A stretch of DNA of 50,797 nucleotides from Candidatus Thorarchaeota archaeon. Lineage in GTDB: Archaea; Asgardarchaeota; Thorarchaeia; Thorarchaeales; Thorarchaeaceae. The notes beneath the pieces are model-generated. The model saw only the letters and a program-made list of their open reading frames with translations. It made no database searches and was not told the DNA's origin. The translations under genes and the position numbers were made by a program. Shown piece after piece: positions 1,729 through 44,098 of this stretch (positions within the stretch are counted from its first letter, which is position 1; every line of letters begins with the position of its first letter). The DNA is taken from assembly GCA_018335335.1 (NCBI GenBank), contig JAGXKG010000011.1, positions 1 through 50,797 on the forward strand. The letters are read 5' to 3'.

Positions 1729-2970
1729 TCAAAGATTGCTGACAGGAATTTCAATTCTGAATGTAGCTCCTGTTGGCTCTGTTTCTCTGTATTCTATGGT
1801 GCCATCTCCAAGCTCCAAGATTCGATGGACGAGATAGAGCCCCATGCTGAAATCTGTTCCATTTTTCGTTCCTTTTTGGAATAGTGAATTCTTAACTTCT
1901 GGAGGAAGGCCGGGCCCATCATCGCTGACTTCTGCGATAAAGAGATCATCGGACTGCTTCACTTCCACATCTACCTTCGGTGATATTCCTGCATGTTGAG
2001 ATGCGTTCCGGAACAGATTCTCGAAAATCAACGGGAAGAAGCGATTGGTAGTTACAAGATTTTTACTCTCGTTATGCATTGTCAGTTTAATCTCTAAATT
2101 TGGATGAATTCTCTCCGCATGCTCTATTATTGCTGGTAGAACTTCTCCAATGGTTGTCGAAATCCAGTCAGGACGCTTTGAAAGGGTTTTGACTAGTCTT
2201 CCAATTCTCTCTAGGGCTGCATCTGTTGATTCGATGAAATGTTCAGTTTTGGGGCTCAATTGTTGCTCCTTGGTTAGTTCAATCGATCCTTCTGCAACCT
2301 GTAGATCGTTCTTGATATCATGGACCAAGAGCGAAGTGTACGCTTCGATTTCTTTTCTGGCATTTGCGATTCGGAGATTCTTATCATGGAGCAATTCAAT
2401 GTAATGTTGCCTTGCCCAAGACCCGGCGTATACGAGAACTGAAAGAGCCCAGGTAGGGGCAACAAGGACTATGAAGCTATTGGGATCGTAACTGGGCACA
2501 CCAGGATGTAGCAGAACAGTCGTACCGAACACTACGTCCTGCAAAATGATCAGTGCGAGTCCAATTTGCATGTCCAGTAGATAGGTTGTGATGATTATTG
2601 CCGATGAAATCCAAATCATCATAACAGGTACTGTGCTGTATGACCAAAAACCCTTCTCAAGGAGAGCGGCGTAAGGGAATATTGCCCATATGGCTACCAG
2701 AAACGAGGAAGCTGCTCTCAATTTGCCTGCCCGGCTTAGCATGTATCCAACTAGAATCAACGCAGCCAGAATATAGAGTTCAGGAACCCGATCGGAGAAT
2801 AGAGAACTGAAGGGCTGAAGAACAATGAACATTGGTATTACTACAAGTGACAGCCCTGCAATGAACCTCATTCTGATTTCTGACCTTTGGTCGGAAGGCT
2901 CGATTGATGGTTCTACCAGGAACTGAAGTAGTCGCTTCATTCTGGTCTTCCATACCTTCTGCCTGCCCAA
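1729..2970 (-). CDS. Membrane-bound sensor histidine kinase (orphan)
   Basis: A 413-residue kinase. Residues about 34-183 hold five to six hydrophobic segments forming a membrane sensor. The dimerisation/phosphoacceptor helix carries H217 in the motif LLVHDIKNDLQ. The ATPase domain shows an N-box (ENLFRNASQH, 317-326), a G1 box (DDGPGLP, 350-356) and a later SMGLYL G2-like segment. It is expected to autophosphorylate and pass phosphate to a receiver protein, but no receiver or output gene lies nearby. The membrane sensor resembles no ligand domain I can name, so the signal is unknown. A TATA-like stretch (TATATCTAAAATGG, near 3007-3020) lies on this gene's upstream side. Confidence 0.88.
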   Translation of the reverse strand: MGRQKVWKTRMKRLLQFLVEPSIEPSDQRSEIRMRFIAGLSLVVIPMFIVLQPFSSLFSDRVPELYILAALILVGYMLSRAGKLRAASSFLVAIWAIFPYAALLEKGFWSYSTVPVMMIWISSAIIITTYLLDMQIGLALIILQDVVFGTTVLLHPGVPSYDPNSFIVLVAPTWALSVLVYAGSWARQHYIELLHDKNLRIANARKEIEAYTSLLVHDIKNDLQVAEGSIELTKEQQLSPKTEHFIESTDAALERIGRLVKTLSKRPDWISTTIGEVLPAIIEHAERIHPNLEIKLTMHNESKNLVTTNRFFPLIFENLFRNASQHAGISPKVDVEVKQSDDLFIAEVSDDGPGLPPEVKNSLFQKGTKNGTDFSMGLYLVHRILELGDGTIEYRETEPTGATFRIEIPVSNL

Positions 2971-20305: not shown

Positions 20306-20462
20306 AGTCAAATCTCAAACCTTCAGGTTTTGTACTGTGTGTACTTCCTTTTGGTACCTTATTTTATTTGCTAGTCCGGTCTTATCTTGCTTCCGCATAC
20401 CTTTGAGGAACAGAGATTTAAACAAACACGACTCTATATACAGCAAAAGGAGAACACTACGC

Positions 20463-21197
20463 TTGCCAGATAAAAGGCATTCAGGAGTACACCTCGTAGA
20501 CCGTGAATCGCGTCGGATTGTAGTAACTGACGAAACTGTGACGCTGGGCTTTCCGTTGAATGCAATGCCAAATCCCATTTACTCAGCAATGCTGAATGCA
20601 GTTGATATACCTGGTGACGATATGGATGTCTTTCATGGCATATGGCGCGGAAATGTTATGAAGCCAACTCTAGTCACATTTGATAGAGATAAACCATTTC
20701 CGGTAAATACCGCCACCAAAATTGTGCGTCTCACCCTCAAAGATGATGCAATAGCAGAACGAATCGATGAGTTGGAGGGCAATCTACTGGAGATGTTTGG
20801 CCAACCCTTTGAAGACAGCTTTGATGAGCGGATATCCCTTTATCGGAATCTGTACTTGGATGAATCCCTGATTGATAGATTTCGTTTTGGCATAGCTGAG
20901 ATGTATGGCGATAGAAGCTACCAGAATATCAGGAAAAATCCTCGGGTTACTCTGCATTTCTCTTGGCCTACGAATGGCTCGCCACCCTGGTTGAGTTATG
21001 AAATCAGTTGTATTGCAGAGGTTGTAGAACAAGACACACCGTTTTATCGATTCATGCGGATGATGAGGCAGATTTTTTCAAGAGACTTCCTCGAATTGCG
21101 TGAAGAAGAGTATCCATGCGCATATAGGCTGTGGATATCCGATGTGCGTGAGAAAACGCTGAGCTCGCAGAAGGGTTTTGTTCCCCGTAATCAGTAG
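20463..21197 (+). CDS. Hypothetical protein, about 244 aa
   Basis: Not recognised. The frame is open from 20337, but a TATA box (CTCTATATACA, about 20432-20442) indicates transcription starting near 20460, so the TTG at 20463 (LPDKRHSGVH) is the likely leaderless start. The protein is mixed alpha/beta, with strands VDRESRRIVVTDETVTLGF, several aromatic-rich helices (DRFRFGIAEMYGD) and an acidic C-terminal helix region. No catalytic motif is seen. Its stop overlaps the converging VWA gene by seven bases. Confidence 0.6.
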   Translation: MPDKRHSGVHLVDRESRRIVVTDETVTLGFPLNAMPNPIYSAMLNAVDIPGDDMDVFHGIWRGNVMKPTLVTFDRDKPFPVNTATKIVRLTLKDDAIAERIDELEGNLLEMFGQPFEDSFDERISLYRNLYLDESLIDRFRFGIAEMYGDRSYQNIRKNPRVTLHFSWPTNGSPPWLSYEISCIAEVVEQDTPFYRFMRMMRQIFSRDFLELREEEYPCAYRLWISDVREKTLSSQKGFVPRNQ

Positions 21198-23698
21198 TTA
21201 GTCAGCCGCAAGAGTCTTTGAGGTAACTCATCAATAGAATCGATGTCAAGGACAACACCGTGAGATGACTTGGCCAGTTCATCAGCTGATTTTCGGTCAT
21301 ATTCAGCTGCTGGCACAAGAATAATCGTATCGATTCCCTGTTTCTTAATTTTGGCCATTAATTCTGTACATTCCGATTGGTCACTTAGGTAGACATCTGT
21401 ACAGAAAATGAATACTTTCTCTCTAGCTCTTGTCTTCTCAAAATTCTGGAGAGCAAGTCGAATCGAACTTGCTCCTCCAGTACCTCCGCTGGCCCTAAGA
21501 TCAAGAAGATTCGATGCTACCTTCTCAACTGACTTGGCTGAATCCGCCATGTCCTTAACGATATGTGTTGTATTATCAAATAGAACGACTCCGAAGTCAT
21601 CTTTCTGTATGCCGTAGAGCCCTGCCATGACGGAAATCGAAAGCATACCGAGTTTCTTCGGGTGATGCATGGAACCGCTTTTGTCAAGAGCCCAGTAGAA
21701 GGCCCTATGTCCATGATATGTTTCAGTGATTAGGAAATCGTCTGGCCGCAACGTGCGGAAATCTGTACGGCCCTCGGAAAGAAGGTGTGACAGGGTTTCC
21801 TCTAAATCAATGAGATCGATATCATCACCAATGCGAAATGGACGCACTGTGGTAGATGGTTGGATGCCGCCCAACATCGATGATCCCATTACTGCCCGGG
21901 CGAAGCTTTTGCCCAGATCAATCAGCAGACGTTTCGCAATCTGCTTCAATCTTCTCTTGAATTCTGGTGGCAGACTTTCTCGGTATGTATACCAAATTGT
22001 GACAATGTTTGTGGCTGGTCCTCCGAGTAGCCCTCTCAGTGCCATGTCTGCTCTTTGCGGGTCCGGTTCTCCACCACCCCTGTGTCGGCGCCCGGCCATT
22101 CCCAGCGCGGCCTGCAAATCAACATGCCCAATCGCTCCCAAGGCTGAAGCGTTTCCCATCCTGTTTGCCATGTCGGCTAGCTCTTTGAGCTGAGATTGAC
22201 TAAGTCCAGCCGAGGATATCAGCCCATGCAATCGATCGAAATCTTTAACGCCTTGCTTGATCAGCTTCTTGGCTACTTCGAAAGAAGGGTTCACAAGCTC
22301 GAGAATTTCACTTTCACTCATTCCCAGTTCTTGCCCTCTTTGGCGAATGGCCTGTTCTGAGGGACCGGTACCCATTCTTCTTGCTCTCCTAACATTCTTT
22401 CGCATGTGTGCTTTTGACTGCGATTGCTTGATAGCTTCATCACTGAGCTGTTGCATCTGTTGGTTCCAGGTATGCTTGCATTGACCAGGCAAATCCTTGC
22501 TTAGCTTGCTGTGCTGCGCCAGTTTCTTGAGTAAATACTCGGCTGGTGCGGAACGTGACTGTGCTCGTTCAATAGTCCTATCTGTCACTTTCTTTACTAG
22601 ATTCTTCCAATTCTGTTGTGGGGTAGCATTCTCACCAAGCTGGTGGTGGTCTACATTTTCTGATGCACCTTTACTGAATTGAGAATCATATTCTTTCATT
22701 AATTGGTCGTGGAGCGATTTGCCAGTATGGTTCTTGATTTGATTCACCATTCTCATTGATTCATCAAAAGCAAATTCTTGTGGAGCTGACTGCACATGAG
22801 AATCAGAATTCTTGGGCAATTCATTCAGATGCGAAGCATACGAAGTCATTTCCTCCAGATTCTGGATTGAATCTTCCAACTTTTTTTGCATAGCATCTCG
22901 GGTGGCTTTCTTTGGCGACCCAATATCCTTCATGTGCGATAGAGCCCTGGCCCCAGTAGCAGGATCTCGCTGGGCCAGGTCATTGAATTCTTTCTGGACA
23001 TCTGAATCACCTCGTAGCGCCTTGGCTGCTAGAGATTCAGCTCTGTTATGCGATGAACAAACTTGGTCAAGACTGTCTAGTGTCTTGGAATTCTCTATAT
23101 CCCTAGAGCTGAGACCTCCAATCCGTTCTAGAAGCTCTTGGGATGCTTCTTGTTTAAGCCTCTCATCATTAGAGATACCGCGTAAGACTATATCGCCTTC
23201 TGTGAGATAGTCTGTAGCAGAATTCAGCAAGTCGTCTTTGTCTGAATTCTTCAGTTTTCGCAGGTAGTTGTAGCCATCCGAAATTTTCTCAGTTTCAATT
23301 TTTTCAGATAGTTCCTGTTCTCGCAATATAGTATTGATGACTTCATTGAGTGAATCAGTGACTGCCTTCTTTGCTTTCTTTTGCTTCTGTTTCTTCTGTT
23401 GTGTTTCGAGTAATGTTTTCTCCTCATCTTCTCTTCCAAGCACGATGTCTTCAGCTACATCCCTCGCCACCTTCTGGTCAGCTGGGAATGTCGTATAGAC
23501 TGCAGCTTCGACCAAATCGTCAAGACTAAGTCTTCCTTGTTTGAAATACCGTGCACTCAAAAATTGTGGAATGGCTTCGGTCTGTCTTATGCTTGGTTTC
23601 TGCTTGAGGTCTTGGCGGGCCCTCATTCGAGAGACAAATTCCTGAGCGAACTCCACTACCATGCTCGGAATAGGGTCAATTCTTGCTTTTGTTCCCAT
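21191..23698 (-). CDS. Large VWA-domain protein, partner of MoxR ATPase
   Basis: An 835-residue protein. Residues about 1-640 are charged, helical and coiled-coil-like. The C-terminal von Willebrand A domain (about 660-835) has the metal-binding MIDAS start ALDKSGSMHH (D-x-S-x-S near residue 670), the conserved Thr/Gly-rich ASGGTGGASS loop and the later CTDVYLS Asp. It follows the MoxR gene by two bases, the classic MoxR-VWA pairing in which the ATPase and VWA protein act as a chaperone for assembly or metal insertion. The substrate is unknown. The long helical N-terminal part is unlike the short CoxE-type partners. Confidence 0.85.
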   Translation of the reverse strand: MGTKARIDPIPSMVVEFAQEFVSRMRARQDLKQKPSIRQTEAIPQFLSARYFKQGRLSLDDLVEAAVYTTFPADQKVARDVAEDIVLGREDEEKTLLETQQKKQKQKKAKKAVTDSLNEVINTILREQELSEKIETEKISDGYNYLRKLKNSDKDDLLNSATDYLTEGDIVLRGISNDERLKQEASQELLERIGGLSSRDIENSKTLDSLDQVCSSHNRAESLAAKALRGDSDVQKEFNDLAQRDPATGARALSHMKDIGSPKKATRDAMQKKLEDSIQNLEEMTSYASHLNELPKNSDSHVQSAPQEFAFDESMRMVNQIKNHTGKSLHDQLMKEYDSQFSKGASENVDHHQLGENATPQQNWKNLVKKVTDRTIERAQSRSAPAEYLLKKLAQHSKLSKDLPGQCKHTWNQQMQQLSDEAIKQSQSKAHMRKNVRRARRMGTGPSEQAIRQRGQELGMSESEILELVNPSFEVAKKLIKQGVKDFDRLHGLISSAGLSQSQLKELADMANRMGNASALGAIGHVDLQAALGMAGRRHRGGGEPDPQRADMALRGLLGGPATNIVTIWYTYRESLPPEFKRRLKQIAKRLLIDLGKSFARAVMGSSMLGGIQPSTTVRPFRIGDDIDLIDLEETLSHLLSEGRTDFRTLRPDDFLITETYHGHRAFYWALDKSGSMHHPKKLGMLSISVMAGLYGIQKDDFGVVLFDNTTHIVKDMADSAKSVEKVASNLLDLRASGGTGGASSIRLALQNFEKTRAREKVFIFCTDVYLSDQSECTELMAKIKKQGIDTIILVPAAEYDRKSADELAKSSHGVVLDIDSIDELPQRLLRLTNY

Positions 23699-38619: not shown

Positions 38620-39567
38620 TCACTTGAAAGCTGGTAAAACGTGTTCACCCAATGCTTGGCATTGGGCCTTTTCCTCGCCGTATGGAAACATGAAAATAAA
38701 ATGGGTTACCCCCATTTCCTGGTATTCTCGGACTCGTTGAATAATCATTTCTGAATCTCCCCAAAGCGCCGAACTAACCTTTTCGCGATAGTCGTCTACT
38801 TCCATATTTCGCTCTTTGGCTGTTTTTTCTATCTTCTTCTCCATTTCTTGCTTGCTCTTGAACCAGCGAGTCCATAGGCCTACTGATCTGCTCAGCTCGG
38901 ATTCTCTTTCATGTTTCTTAGCCATAGATGACATCTTTCCAAATATTTTCCGACATTCTTTGGGAGTAAACGCCCATGCTAGGTTTAGTCCATCTCCATA
39001 TTGAGCTGCAACTTCAACTATGCGATTTCCTCCTGTCATGCTACCCACCCAGATTGTAGGATGAGGTTGCTGTACCGGCTTCGGTTCGGAAATCAGGTTT
39101 TCTACAGAGTAATAGTCCCCATCAAACGAAAATTTCTCCTTAGTCCACGCGCCCTTGATAATTTGAATTCCTTCACCGAGTTGTTCTATTCTCGTCAAAT
39201 CATTTGGATATTCGATTCCATAAGCTTCATAGTCTAGCTCCTTCCACCCCGCCCCAATTCCAAACTCCAGTCGTCCTCCCGAAAGATTGTCTAAGCTTGC
39301 CCCCATCTTAGCATGAAGAGCTGGGTTTCTGTAGTTGTTACAAAAAACTAGTGACCCGAGCCTAATGTCACTGTTCTCTCTGCTCAGGGCAGACATGACT
39401 AACCATGGATCTAGTAGAACCCTGTCGGTGGCATCCTGATTGAGTATGAAATGGTCTGAAAACCAAGCTGTGTCGAAATTATTCTCCATTGCGATATTGG
39501 CTATACTTCTGATTTCACTGAATTCGTACCCAAATTGCGGTTCGATTTGAATTCCAAAGCTGGACAT
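38620..39567 (-). CDS. Luciferase-like monooxygenase (F420-type LLM)
   Basis: A 315-residue TIM-barrel flavin/F420 enzyme. The N-terminal strand FGIQIEPQF, the DTAWFSDHF segment, RLGSLVFCNNYRNPALHAK and the NLSGGRLEFGIGAGW motif identify the LLM family. Archaeal members often use coenzyme F420 for hydride transfer; substrates vary (secondary alcohols, aldehydes, methylene-tetrahydromethanopterin). The C-terminal region (MGVTHFIFMFPYGE) closes the barrel. It stands alone with no metabolic neighbours, so the substrate is unknown. Confidence 0.82.
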   Translation of the reverse strand: MSSFGIQIEPQFGYEFSEIRSIANIAMENNFDTAWFSDHFILNQDATDRVLLDPWLVMSALSRENSDIRLGSLVFCNNYRNPALHAKMGASLDNLSGGRLEFGIGAGWKELDYEAYGIEYPNDLTRIEQLGEGIQIIKGAWTKEKFSFDGDYYSVENLISEPKPVQQPHPTIWVGSMTGGNRIVEVAAQYGDGLNLAWAFTPKECRKIFGKMSSMAKKHERESELSRSVGLWTRWFKSKQEMEKKIEKTAKERNMEVDDYREKVSSALWGDSEMIIQRVREYQEMGVTHFIFMFPYGEEKAQCQALGEHVLPAFK

Positions 39568-39646: not shown

Positions 39647-41452
39647 CTAAGTCGCTCCTGGATAGCATTCCTTCATGATGAGACGCATGAGGCTCATTCG
39701 TATTCTGTCCTCGTCAACAAAGCCGGTTAGCTCGTCCTCGCAGATACGAATCATTGGCAACATGGGAAGCTCGTCCTCATCAATCACTACTGAAGGGTCG
39801 TCCACATTGATGACTTCAACAAATCGCTCTGCAATGCCCATCTCCTGCATAAGACCGAAAAGCGTCTCCTTGGTGGGCTCGCAGAAAAGACAGTGGTCCG
39901 ATTCATAGAATATAACACATTTGCTGCGTCCACATGGGAGCTCGGCCTCTTCAATCCATTTCGGCAATGTAATGACGATCGATGCACCCTTCGTATGGTC
40001 ACCCTCAACTCTGTCTCCTGCCCAAATACGTCCGCCGAGTTCATTGATCACCATTCTGGCAAGCGTAAGACCAAGACCTCGACCAACCATTTGCCGTTCG
40101 GAGCTGTTACGATTGAAGATACTCTCCTTTAAGGAGTCGGGTATTCCCTTTCCATAGTCCATACATTCTATTCTTACTCTATCGCTTTCGTTGGATGCTA
40201 CAATCTCAATTTCTACGTTGTCACCTTCAGTAAAAAGCACAGAATTTGTCAATACATTAAGAAACACATGGCGCAGGAATCTGTTACCAACAATCTCGAA
40301 TTCTCCCTCTTCCACTTCACAATCCACATCTATCTGCTTCCACCTGAATGTATCCCTCACCGATTGGATAGCACGGTTGATGCATTCGACTGGATCTTTC
40401 CTTTCTTTCTCTGGTGGGTCTTTCTCCAGCTCCCATATGATTCTCAGATTAGTGACCATACGAGTCGCTCTATCAATATTCCAGTTGGACTCGCGTATCA
40501 GTTGCTGAATTTCGGGTGGAACATCCAAACTTTGGTCAATAAGCCCGATAGTGAACAAAAGCGTCTGATTGACATTCGAAAGATCATGTGTAATTACGTC
40601 CAGATACAGATTAGCCCGTTCTCTTTCTTCTTTCTCTTTGAGTTCCGCCGTCTTCCGCCTGTTTATGTCCAGTGCCATGAATCCTATTCTTGGAGGCTTA
40701 TCAGGAACACTGAGAGAACTTGCTGTAACGCTGACCCAAATGGTACTTCCATCAGAATGCAGCATCCTCATTTCTACGTCTCGCACCGTTTTACCTTGGA
40801 GTACTTCGGACACAATTTGATCTGCAGAACGCCGTCCGCGTTCTTTTCCAGTTGTAAGTGATGAAATATTTCGTCGGAGCATATTTGAGGAATCGTACCC
40901 GAGAAGGGTTTCTGCGGCGGTATTCACGTCTTGGATTATCCCACGTCTACTCAGAGTGAAATATGCTATGGGCGAAGAATCGTAGAGTGTTCGATAACGG
41001 GCTTCTGAAGCCTCTAGAGAAGCTTCTAAGGCAACCTGCTCTGATATGTCCCGCACTATAGCTAGAATTGCTGGTTTGCCGTTGAAGATGAAATCAGAAG
41101 TGCTCATCTCTGCATTTACAACGTGCCGTTTCGAATCAAGCAATCTCACCCTGAAACTTGGTCGGCTGGATTCGCCAAAATCGAAGGACTCAATGTTCTC
41201 TGTATACATGTGTTTAGTTGCTGGATCTAGATACTCCTCAAAAGGTGTCCCTATGACATCCTTCGTTGTTGCATCCAGCATTTCGCAAAAGGCAGAATTT
41301 GAATAAGCAATTATCCCATCCTGGATGGCTACTATTCCATCATTTGCCATCTTGACAATCGCTTCTACATTTTTGCCAGAGAGGAATCTATTACTTTCGT
41401 ACTCCTGACCTTTTGCCACTTCTATGTCCTCTGCTGTGGGGTTGATTAACAT
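39647..41452 (-). CDS. PAS-PAS histidine kinase with C-terminal thioredoxin-like domain
   Basis: A 601-residue soluble sensor kinase. Two PAS domains (about 28-140 and 148-265) precede the kinase core: phosphoacceptor H289 in VITHDLSN, N-box around N399-N403, DYGKGIP (432-438) and GRGLGLTLAR (457-466). Unusually, a 95-residue thioredoxin-like domain follows: VIFYESDHCLFCEPTKE with active-site pair C521-x2-C524 and a LPMLPMIRI segment positioned like the thioredoxin cis-Pro strand. This suggests a redox input to the kinase (inference). No receiver gene is adjacent. No membrane segment is seen, so it is probably cytoplasmic. Confidence 0.85.
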   Translation of the reverse strand: MLINPTAEDIEVAKGQEYESNRFLSGKNVEAIVKMANDGIVAIQDGIIAYSNSAFCEMLDATTKDVIGTPFEEYLDPATKHMYTENIESFDFGESSRPSFRVRLLDSKRHVVNAEMSTSDFIFNGKPAILAIVRDISEQVALEASLEASEARYRTLYDSSPIAYFTLSRRGIIQDVNTAAETLLGYDSSNMLRRNISSLTTGKERGRRSADQIVSEVLQGKTVRDVEMRMLHSDGSTIWVSVTASSLSVPDKPPRIGFMALDINRRKTAELKEKEERERANLYLDVITHDLSNVNQTLLFTIGLIDQSLDVPPEIQQLIRESNWNIDRATRMVTNLRIIWELEKDPPEKERKDPVECINRAIQSVRDTFRWKQIDVDCEVEEGEFEIVGNRFLRHVFLNVLTNSVLFTEGDNVEIEIVASNESDRVRIECMDYGKGIPDSLKESIFNRNSSERQMVGRGLGLTLARMVINELGGRIWAGDRVEGDHTKGASIVITLPKWIEEAELPCGRSKCVIFYESDHCLFCEPTKETLFGLMQEMGIAERFVEVINVDDPSVVIDEDELPMLPMIRICEDELTGFVDEDRIRMSLMRLIMKECYPGAT

Positions 41453-41608: not shown

Positions 41609-43171
41609 TCATTTGTAGTTGTCTAGTGCTTGTACTGAGAGGCGTAGAAAGAAACCCACCAACAAAACAGTAACCATTGGCATGATAATCTGGATTGTCC
41701 AAGCCTCAGCGGACTGCAATACAAGTGTCATCATCATTCCTCCGAGAACAAGATCTACAACAGGAAACGCAAGAGCTAGGGGTATTGGTGGTTTGGAAGG
41801 ATTGTTTGTGAAAACCGGCACGTATGAACCCATCATGATTCCAGCAGCAGAGAATACTAGAACCAATGGAAACGCAAGACTGGTGAGAAAGGCGGATCCT
41901 TCAACTCTGAAGATATACACAAGGAGACCCAATTGTGGCAGTAATCCGATGCATGATTCCAAGACACTCTGTATATACTTAGAAAGGACGATATCAATTG
42001 TTCGGAGTGGGCTGCTCTTGAGTAGGTAAACTCGCTCCTTTTCATCCATGAAACTCATCAAAGATGATATACAGGACACCTGAACCAGGAGAATAAGTAT
42101 GAGCATAAAGGCGGGTACTGCTGTAGATTGGAACTGTTGCGGAATCTGAATCGGTTGCAGCCAGGACGGAGTCACTAGAAAGAGGTATACCACAAAACTC
42201 CCTCCAACAACCGCATAAATGTATTTCCAGAATTGCAGAGGAAGTCGTATCCTGCTCCAGAAGTCTTTCTTCATAATCCACGTGATCGGGTCATCCAGCC
42301 TTGAGTTCACGAAATTTGCCTCACCCTTGACAACTTCGCTGAATCCCGTTGCCTGTCCTACTCCTCCACCCCATGCATCCCCTCTTGGGGTTTCATTGAG
42401 GATTGTAGCAGTCAGCCCCCAAATCATGTAAAACATGAAAAGCGTAGCAAAAACCACAGGGGCAAAATACCCTATAGAAAGAATTCCAGTTGTTTCTGTA
42501 ATAATACCGATATATGCATTTGAGTGTAGCAATAGTACTGAATTCGGATTTGATGTGATTTGTGGTATAGTGGGAATCAGAATAATTGCAGCTAGTACTA
42601 ATGCACCACCAATTCTCTTGATCCTACTTGAATCAGCTGATATTTCAGCGGCAATACTGTGAATGAAGTAGTTGCTATCCAAATAGAGAATAGAAGAAAC
42701 GAGGAGCATACCTAGAGCAGGTAGTATACCTATATTTTGCTGAATTACGGGAAATAACACCAGAATAACTATGGCTAGGTATGCTGCCTTTCTCAGGAGC
42801 TGACGCACATAGTTGCTTACAAAGATTTGATAGGTCTTTACGGGCGCTGGCATAAGCACTTGCTCATCCGTAGACTGTATGTAGGAAGAGATTTGCTCAC
42901 CGAAGTATCCCGATAACAGAGACGCAACTGGGAGCAATGATGCTGCGGTGAAAAGCAGATTCCTATCGAGAAGCTCTTCCAAAGCAACTTGAATGTCTGT
43001 TATCAAGGGAGAAAAAGCCACAAGCAGGGATATGACATACGAGATGAAAATTCCAGCTGATATCACTATCAGGTAGAAAACAAGCATAGATTTTTCCGAT
43101 GCCGTTCTCCGCACCTGGTTGTATGACATGCGAATCTCGTTCGCAACAAGTTGAAGAAGGGTAACGGTCAT
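41609..43171 (-). CDS. ABC transporter permease, ABC-2-like
   Basis: A 520-residue polytopic membrane protein with about twelve hydrophobic segments, consistent with a fused pair of six-helix ABC-2 type permease halves. It lies ten bases after the ATP-binding protein gene, so the two form one exporter. It contains no periplasmic-binding features, and the substrate cannot be inferred; archaeal exporters of this shape move lipids, antibiotics or sodium. Confidence 0.75.
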   Translation of the reverse strand: MTVTLLQLVANEIRMSYNQVRRTASEKSMLVFYLIVISAGIFISYVISLLVAFSPLITDIQVALEELLDRNLLFTAASLLPVASLLSGYFGEQISSYIQSTDEQVLMPAPVKTYQIFVSNYVRQLLRKAAYLAIVILVLFPVIQQNIGILPALGMLLVSSILYLDSNYFIHSIAAEISADSSRIKRIGGALVLAAIILIPTIPQITSNPNSVLLLHSNAYIGIITETTGILSIGYFAPVVFATLFMFYMIWGLTATILNETPRGDAWGGGVGQATGFSEVVKGEANFVNSRLDDPITWIMKKDFWSRIRLPLQFWKYIYAVVGGSFVVYLFLVTPSWLQPIQIPQQFQSTAVPAFMLILILLVQVSCISSLMSFMDEKERVYLLKSSPLRTIDIVLSKYIQSVLESCIGLLPQLGLLVYIFRVEGSAFLTSLAFPLVLVFSAAGIMMGSYVPVFTNNPSKPPIPLALAFPVVDLVLGGMMMTLVLQSAEAWTIQIIMPMVTVLLVGFFLRLSVQALDNYK

Positions 43172-43180
43172 TTCAAAAAC

Positions 43181-44098
43181 CTACTTAGCCGGAATACCAC
43201 CAGTTAGCTCGAGAAAGATTTCTTCAAGGCTTTTACACTCTGGACATCGATTTCTTAATTCAGTTAGTGTTCCCCTGCCCACAGCCTTTCCATGGTTCAA
43301 TATCACAAATCTGTCACACAATGCTTCGGCTACTTCAAGGATGTGAGTGGAAACGAGTATCGCAGAACCCTCATCTCGTAATTCTCTCAGCTGCTTCTTG
43401 AAGTTCCAAGCGCCAAGTGGGTCGAGCCCGTAGATGGGTTCATCAAGGGCAAGGATAAACGGAGGCGGTCTAATGAAAATCCCGACAACGAGAACTCGCT
43501 GAAGGTTACCCTTTGATAAGGTCCCGATATAGGAGTCTAGGTATTTGTCTAGGTGAAATAGATCAACGTATTTTCTGGTTCTCAGTATTCGTTCGACTGG
43601 TGAAACGTCATAGAGCTTTGCAATAAACTGGAAGTACTCCTTCACTCTGAGACTTGGGTAGCATGTTGGCTTCTCAGGTATATATCCGATTCTCCGTTTT
43701 GCCTTGAGGGGTTCTTTCTCAATATTGTACCCGGCAATCTCTACTTCACCAGCTGTTGCTTTGATGATCCCTGTGAGAATCCGTAGGGTTGTGGTTTTGC
43801 CTGCTCCATTAGGCCCTACTAGACCTACGATTTCTCTAGGATGGACATCTAGGTCAAGGCCATTTACAGCCACCGTAGTGCTGTAATTCTTCTTGATATT
43901 TCTGAGTTTGATTGATGGGTCACCAATTTCGTGGGGTGACGCTAAATCCTTCTTATGCCACTCCTCTAAATTGTCCATTAGCTTGTCAATAAGCAATTGG
44001 CGGCGAACGGTTCTTTCCGTAATAGGGATATTGAATTCCCTTGCAAGACTGAACAGCTCTTCCCCACTCATTTTTTCTACGATGCTCTCAATCTGCAT
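43181..44098 (-). CDS. ABC transporter ATP-binding protein with N-terminal extension
   Basis: A 305-residue ATPase. Walker A GPNGAGKT (95-102), signature LSKGNLQRV in place of LSGGQ, Walker B FILALDEP and the H-loop STHIL. The first 60 residues are an extra helical domain (SGEELFSLAREFNIPITERT, LLIDKLMDN) resembling the SAP/Rho-N helix-hairpin type, unusual for ABC-2 ATPases. With the permease at 41609-43171 it should drive export. The ATG at 44098 gives the extension; a start near residue 60 would remove it, but no good alternative start is visible there. Confidence 0.82.
   Translation of the reverse strand: MQIESIVEKMSGEELFSLAREFNIPITERTVRRQLLIDKLMDNLEEWHKKDLASPHEIGDPSIKLRNIKKNYSTTVAVNGLDLDVHPREIVGLVGPNGAGKTTTLRILTGIIKATAGEVEIAGYNIEKEPLKAKRRIGYIPEKPTCYPSLRVKEYFQFIAKLYDVSPVERILRTRKYVDLFHLDKYLDSYIGTLSKGNLQRVLVVGIFIRPPPFILALDEPIYGLDPLGAWNFKKQLRELRDEGSAILVSTHILEVAEALCDRFVILNHGKAVGRGTLTELRNRCPECKSLEEIFLELTGGIPAK

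Follow-up and report, generated by a model that had tools for sequence, protein, structure and literature searches.

Redoxins usually influence signalling proteins as separate, external partners. The KaiB-like domain of the cyanobacterial clock kinase SasA is an N-terminal module that binds KaiC and is not known to have a CxxC. SasA (PMC6769508) is nevertheless comparable to the kinase encoded in the window (the whole 50,797-nucleotide stretch of Candidatus Thorarchaeota DNA analyzed here), since both are histidine kinases carrying a thioredoxin-fold domain, but in the window kinase this redoxin is C-terminal and has an invariant CxxC. The PAS-PAS-HisKA-HATPase core is common to the window kinase and the cytosolic PAS-containing archaeal histidine kinases, and is typical for archaea (Galperin et al. 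2018, PMC5847659). A word search of the main text of that paper finds no mention of a redoxin appended to a kinase; the fusion of REC to thioredoxin reductase in Heimdallarchaeota, which the same text includes, is a different arrangement.

Proteins that resemble histidine kinases and lack the phosphoacceptor are also described, namely DivL and the Methanosarcina type 2 kinases RdmS and MsmS (PMC4211667, PMC11784639). Methanosarcina kinases without an H-box bind and hydrolyse ATP and have no autokinase activity, and for RdmS a labelling that depended on cysteines in oxidising conditions is described as an unspecific artefact (PMC11784639). One class of the fused proteins considered below (class B) is similar to DivL, RdmS and MsmS in that the phosphoacceptor histidine is lost and the histidine kinase scaffold kept. 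Unlike them, it has a redoxin tail whose CxxC is intact, and the window protein itself retains the histidine. Among free-standing redoxins, the small archaeal thioredoxins or glutaredoxin-like proteins 1fo5 and 1nho (PDB) have the same fold as the window tail, with CxxC after strand 1, a cis-proline before strand 3 and a length of about 85-95 residues; they lack the four accessory cysteines discussed below, whereas the window tail is fused behind a histidine kinase. Histidine kinases, redoxins and the pairing of a histidine kinase with a redoxin fold, as in SasA, are thus already known. No fusion of a histidine kinase to thioredoxin was found in searches of open-access papers, in which "thioredoxin domain" referred either to expression tags or to operons of no relevance here. 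As far as that literature was searched, the combination of a C-terminal CxxC redoxin, a linked set of four cysteines and a histidine-free sister clade is undescribed.

The window protein is a sensor histidine kinase with intact kinase boxes, followed by a redoxin tail (Table 1). Pfam recognizes two PAS domains and an HATPase_c domain (PF02518, 69.5 bits) that ends at residue 498, and the boxes FLNVLTNS, DYGKGIP and GRGLGLT are present. HisKA has no separate Pfam match in this protein, and H289 is placed within the AF2 helix formed by residues 264-307. In the full-length AF2 model (mean pLDDT 85), the tail is a separate unit starting at residue 513. Neither the Pfam nor the AF2 results give any sign of a membrane segment. 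The tail has six cysteines (C507, C512, C521, C524, C571 and C596). The first-pass annotation had described a PAS-PAS-HisKA-ATPase protein with a fused C-terminal domain, a CLFC motif, a proline within an LPMLP segment, and C507 and C512 ahead of the domain; all of these are borne out by the ORF, Pfam, AF2 and the relatives. A second histidine-kinase-like ORF in the window (1729-2970, minus strand, 413 residues) resembles the fused protein in its kinase core and lacks the redoxin tail.

Table 1. Features of the fused kinase gene, its flanks and a second redoxin-kinase fusion (window positions unless a locus is given).
Feature	Position	Strand	Basis or remark
Whole gene, PAS-PAS-DHp-CA-thioredoxin-like histidine kinase	39647..41452 including stop (coding 39650-41452)	-	Single 601-residue ORF
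First PAS domain, residues ~26-135	41048..41377	-	Pfam PAS, two stretches; AF2 elements 26-135
Second PAS domain, residues ~150-262	40667..41005	-	Pfam PAS 152-254; AF2
DHp two-helix region, residues 264-344, H-box VITHDLSNVNQ	40421..40663	-	AF2 helices 264-307 and 313-344; alignment
Phosphoacceptor histidine H289	40586..40588	-	Alignment of relatives; substituted in paralogous clade
HATPase_c (CA) domain, residues 350-498; N-box N403, DxGxG D432 and GRGLGLT intact	39959..40405	-	Pfam, AF2, motif check
C-terminal thioredoxin/glutaredoxin-fold domain (predicted), residues ~505-598	39659..39940	-	AF2 and Foldseek, profile comparisons
CLFC redox motif, C521 and C524	39881..39892	-	Kept in 63/63 fused proteins
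P566, cis-proline position before strand 3, in LPMLP	39755..39757	-	Invariant alignment column
C507-G-x-x-x-C512, accessory cysteines 1 and 2, at ATPase-domain junction	39917..39934	-	Alignment
C571, accessory cysteine 3, end of strand 3	39740..39742	-	Alignment, AF2
C596, accessory cysteine 4, after last helix	39665..39667	-	Alignment, AF2
Luciferase-like (LLM) oxidoreductase, flank of kinase gene	38620-39567		
ABC transporter pair, other flank of kinase gene	41609-44098		Presumed 520-residue permease without Pfam match, named from its position beside the ABC ATPase
PAS-Trx-PAS-histidine kinase fusion, other Asgard family	L179:2628-4607, orthologues L185-L193

The tail has no significant domain match in Pfam or NCBIfam, the best being the glutaredoxin-like DUF836 at E 0.039, below the cut-off, and profile and structure routes were therefore used to identify it. 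Modelled alone with 33 relatives, the domain is predicted by AF2 to form a glutaredoxin/thioredoxin core (pLDDT 80, and about 85 inside the full protein), with the strand-helix-strand-strand-strand-helix order of the beta-alpha-beta-beta-beta-alpha redoxin core. In a Foldseek comparison with the PDB, nearly all of the top 50 matches are to thioredoxins, NrdH or glutaredoxins at probabilities of 0.99-1.00, with moderate TM-scores (about 0.4-0.6 by query) and every E-value at or above 0.001. A profile of 23 tails has the 1fo5 thioredoxin as its best PDB match (E 0.025), and 7 of the 8 PDB matches listed are named as thioredoxins, glutaredoxins or (protein) disulfide oxidoreductases. A further connection runs through a standalone six-cysteine family: the tail profile aligns to it at 99.9% (hhalign, E 9e-35), its own profile matches the 1nho thioredoxin at E 8.7e-8, and one member, L058, exceeds the Pfam Thioredoxin cut-off (25.2 vs 23.5). 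Both the CxxC at the start of helix 1 (C521/C524) and the cis-proline position before strand 3 (P566) are present in the tail by sequence position. A thioredoxin/glutaredoxin fold is thus supported by AF2 with Foldseek, by profile comparison, by conservation of the CxxC and by homology via the standalone family, in agreement with the thioredoxin-like fold first suggested. Membership of the KaiB family is rejected, as Pfam gives the window domain no KaiB match at E up to 10. The standalone proteins (98-145 residues; L058-L083, L092, L093 and G000:C29:3046-3483) often occur in several copies per thorarchaeal genome, and some have extra cysteines (CGRCSC, CGC, DCFC).

The whole architecture is found again in 63 distinct fused proteins (a count that leaves out two Trx-V4R protein rows), and all 63 have the CxxC. 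A chance CxxC or frame fusion is ruled out by the identical continuous ORF architecture in many genomes. A search of 228 genomes of the phylum with the tail profile detects the C-terminal fusion in 41 of the 47 genomes that belong to the window's family (Candidatus Thorarchaeota). Six family genomes lack it, five of which are less than 88% complete and one (G009) 97% complete. Tail-profile matches in other families of the phylum are far weaker, with best E-values of 1e-5 to 1e-10. Of the named loci with the fusion, nearly all belong to MAGs of Candidatus Thorarchaeota; a few carry the label Lokiarchaeota or just archaeon, and one pattern scan of genome contigs returned Asgard-labelled or unlabelled archaeal records only. 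The first-pass annotation had proposed looking for the fusion in other genomes, and had named an unrelated fold or homologues without the CxxC as evidence against its reading; the fusion recurs, and neither such a fold nor such homologues were found.

The fused proteins divide according to the phosphoacceptor histidine. In class A, defined by its presence (35/63), every kinase motif is retained, C507 and C512 occur in 35/35, and C571 and C596 occur in all members except one sequence cut by a contig end. The window kinase belongs here, with H289, N403, D432 and GRGLGLT all intact. In the other 28, the histidine is replaced by S, N, R, Q or K and the CxxC is kept throughout; all four accessory cysteines are absent from 22 of these (class B) and kept in 6, and some class B members also lack the N-box asparagine. 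On a tree built without the H-box and N-box columns, every histidine-free protein falls on one branch (SH-aLRT 98), which corresponds to one loss of the phosphoacceptor histidine and two changes in the accessory-cysteine label. A paralogous clade thus lost the histidine once, after which most of its members shed all four accessory cysteines and retained the CxxC.

In an alignment of 23 divergent relatives that share the window kinase's class and whose domains are 40-93% identical to the window's domain, the invariant positions are C507, G508, C512, F515, Y516, S518, C521, C524, P553, P566, C571, G577 and C596. The six cysteines recur in 27/29 full-length members of the standalone family, the other two lacking C596 only. 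Canonical thioredoxins from the same and related genomes lack the accessory cysteines, except for one that has a single match to the set, a cysteine at the C596 column. Because they track the histidine, recur in the standalone family and are absent from canonical thioredoxins, the accessory cysteines behave as a set. From thioredoxin topology, in which they would lie at the start of strand 1, the end of strand 3 and the end of the last helix, C507, C512, C571 and C596 are expected to cluster beside the ATPase domain, at the opposite pole from the CxxC.

A second fusion of thioredoxin to a histidine kinase is present in nine genomes of another Asgard family, in the order PAS-Trx-PAS-DHp-ATPase. 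Its redoxin exceeds the Pfam Thioredoxin cut-off (29.8 vs 23.5) and has CVYC in 9/9, and T or S stands in place of the H-box histidine in 9/9. This is an independent joining of the two modules in Asgard archaea, and the existence of two such fusions argues that the pairing of a redoxin with a histidine-kinase scaffold is functional. Several other redoxin arrangements were observed. In a further Asgard family, a thioredoxin domain and two V4R domains occur in one protein (L084:1550-2995, L085:1095-2543). At L181:472-1152, an apparent thioredoxin-like domain is followed by a small-GTPase-like segment, with the middle masked with N. A small canonical thioredoxin-like protein with CAFC and weak KaiB similarity (L213:2456-5434, at G000:C23, ~20455-23433; also L086-L091) shares a conserved gene cluster with two KaiC-like ATPases, a Rab-like GTPase and a Roadblock/LC7-like protein; the arrangement recalls KaiB-KaiC.

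With moderate confidence, the window protein is read as a cytosolic archaeal histidine kinase of the sensor type that has a thiol sensor built into it, and redox control of the kinase through the tail is plausible. In such a model, the CxxC pair would switch between dithiol and disulfide (or a mixed disulfide) with the thiol state of the cell or a partner redoxin. By coordinating a metal (Zn or Fe-S) or forming structural disulfides, the four accessory cysteines might fix the redoxin against the kinase, and a redox change would cross this four-cysteine hinge to the ATP-binding domain and set autophosphorylation at H289. Phosphate would then pass to an unlinked response regulator; none is encoded adjacent to the kinase, and 11 REC domains are found elsewhere in the genome. 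Three observations speak against a thiol sensor: it is unusual for input domains to lie at the C-terminus, no response regulator is adjacent, and the histidine-free clade retains the CxxC. Since the CxxC outlasts the phosphoacceptor in that clade, the tail cannot act only on its own protein's autophosphorylation. The original interpretation holds for fold and fusion; the direct redox control of autophosphorylation that it suggested is a reasonable but incomplete reading.

The likely target of the CxxC in histidine-free paralogues is a partner protein, which may be the active kinase (compare DivL, PMC4211667, and the Methanosarcina kinases without an H-box, PMC11784639). Many Thorarchaeota have both classes, and several times the class A and class B genes lie about 18-24 kb apart on one contig. 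It is tentatively suggested, as a rather unlikely extension, that a class A kinase and a class B protein (usually CxxC-only) heterodimerise, with thiol-disulfide exchange between tails setting activity, and that redoxin-histidine kinase fusions arose at least twice in Asgard archaea. No class B protein was found in the window's genome or its one congener, and class A must there work alone or with another partner.

The main rival to a thiol-sensing kinase is that the redoxin is the output, with ATP binding or kinase conformation gating a thiol-disulfide oxidoreductase that acts on clients, and phosphotransfer secondary or dispensable. The tail does follow the ATPase domain, the place of effectors; the CxxC is invariant even in the 28 proteins without the phosphoacceptor, the second Asgard family combines a universal CVYC with no H-box histidine, and ATP binding and hydrolysis persist in archaeal histidine kinases that have no H-box (PMC11784639). 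However, class A, to which the window protein belongs, has every kinase motif, loss of the N-box asparagine in some class B proteins would impair ATP gating, and the thioredoxin of the other Asgard family lies between PAS domains, an input position. An output role is considered unlikely.

If the six cysteines instead bound a soft metal or carried persulfide, the kinase could be a metal or sulfane-sulfur sensor that controls the efflux of metal and the handling of sulfur. In relatives, class A genes commonly lie amid genes for ABC transporters, P1B-type heavy-metal ATPases (16/22) with ArsR (14/22), DsrE (15/22), DUF5400 and TusA (11/22), whereas such metal and sulfur genes occur at 0/15 class B loci. 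In the window's genome, however, they are on other contigs, unlinked to the kinase; the linkage is thus not obligatory, and its standing as a defining context is weakened. Moreover, the metal ATPase already has its own ArsR regulator, and CxxC with a cis-proline is the classical redoxin arrangement. Direct metal or sulfur sensing is quite unlikely, and the neighbours offer a hint of the physiology (metal or sulfur stress) but do not define the system. At L214:474-1636 (G000:C103), TusA, DUF5400 and DsrE are clustered as at the relatives' class A loci, along with further small ORFs and unlinked from the kinase.

A docking or dimerisation module with only the fold of a redoxin and no redox chemistry is improbable: the KaiB-homologous domain of the histidine kinase SasA (PMC6769508) offers a precedent, and redoxin-fold proteins with weak KaiB similarity adjoin KaiC-like ATPases in these same archaea, but the window domain has no KaiB match, and docking alone poorly explains a CxxC and cis-proline that are invariant in proteins down to 33-40% identity.

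In these archaea, then, the redoxin is a covalent part of a histidine kinase, conserved in most sequenced Thorarchaeota, and another Asgard family has its own, independently formed version. The fusion, with its invariant CxxC, suggests that the cell senses its thiol-redox state directly via the kinase. Histidine-bearing six-cysteine kinases and their histidine-free, mostly CxxC-only paralogues constitute a natural experiment on which cysteines are relevant to kinase control, and the kinase offers a simple test of thiol-redox sensing in Asgard archaea, relatives of the ancestor of eukaryotes.
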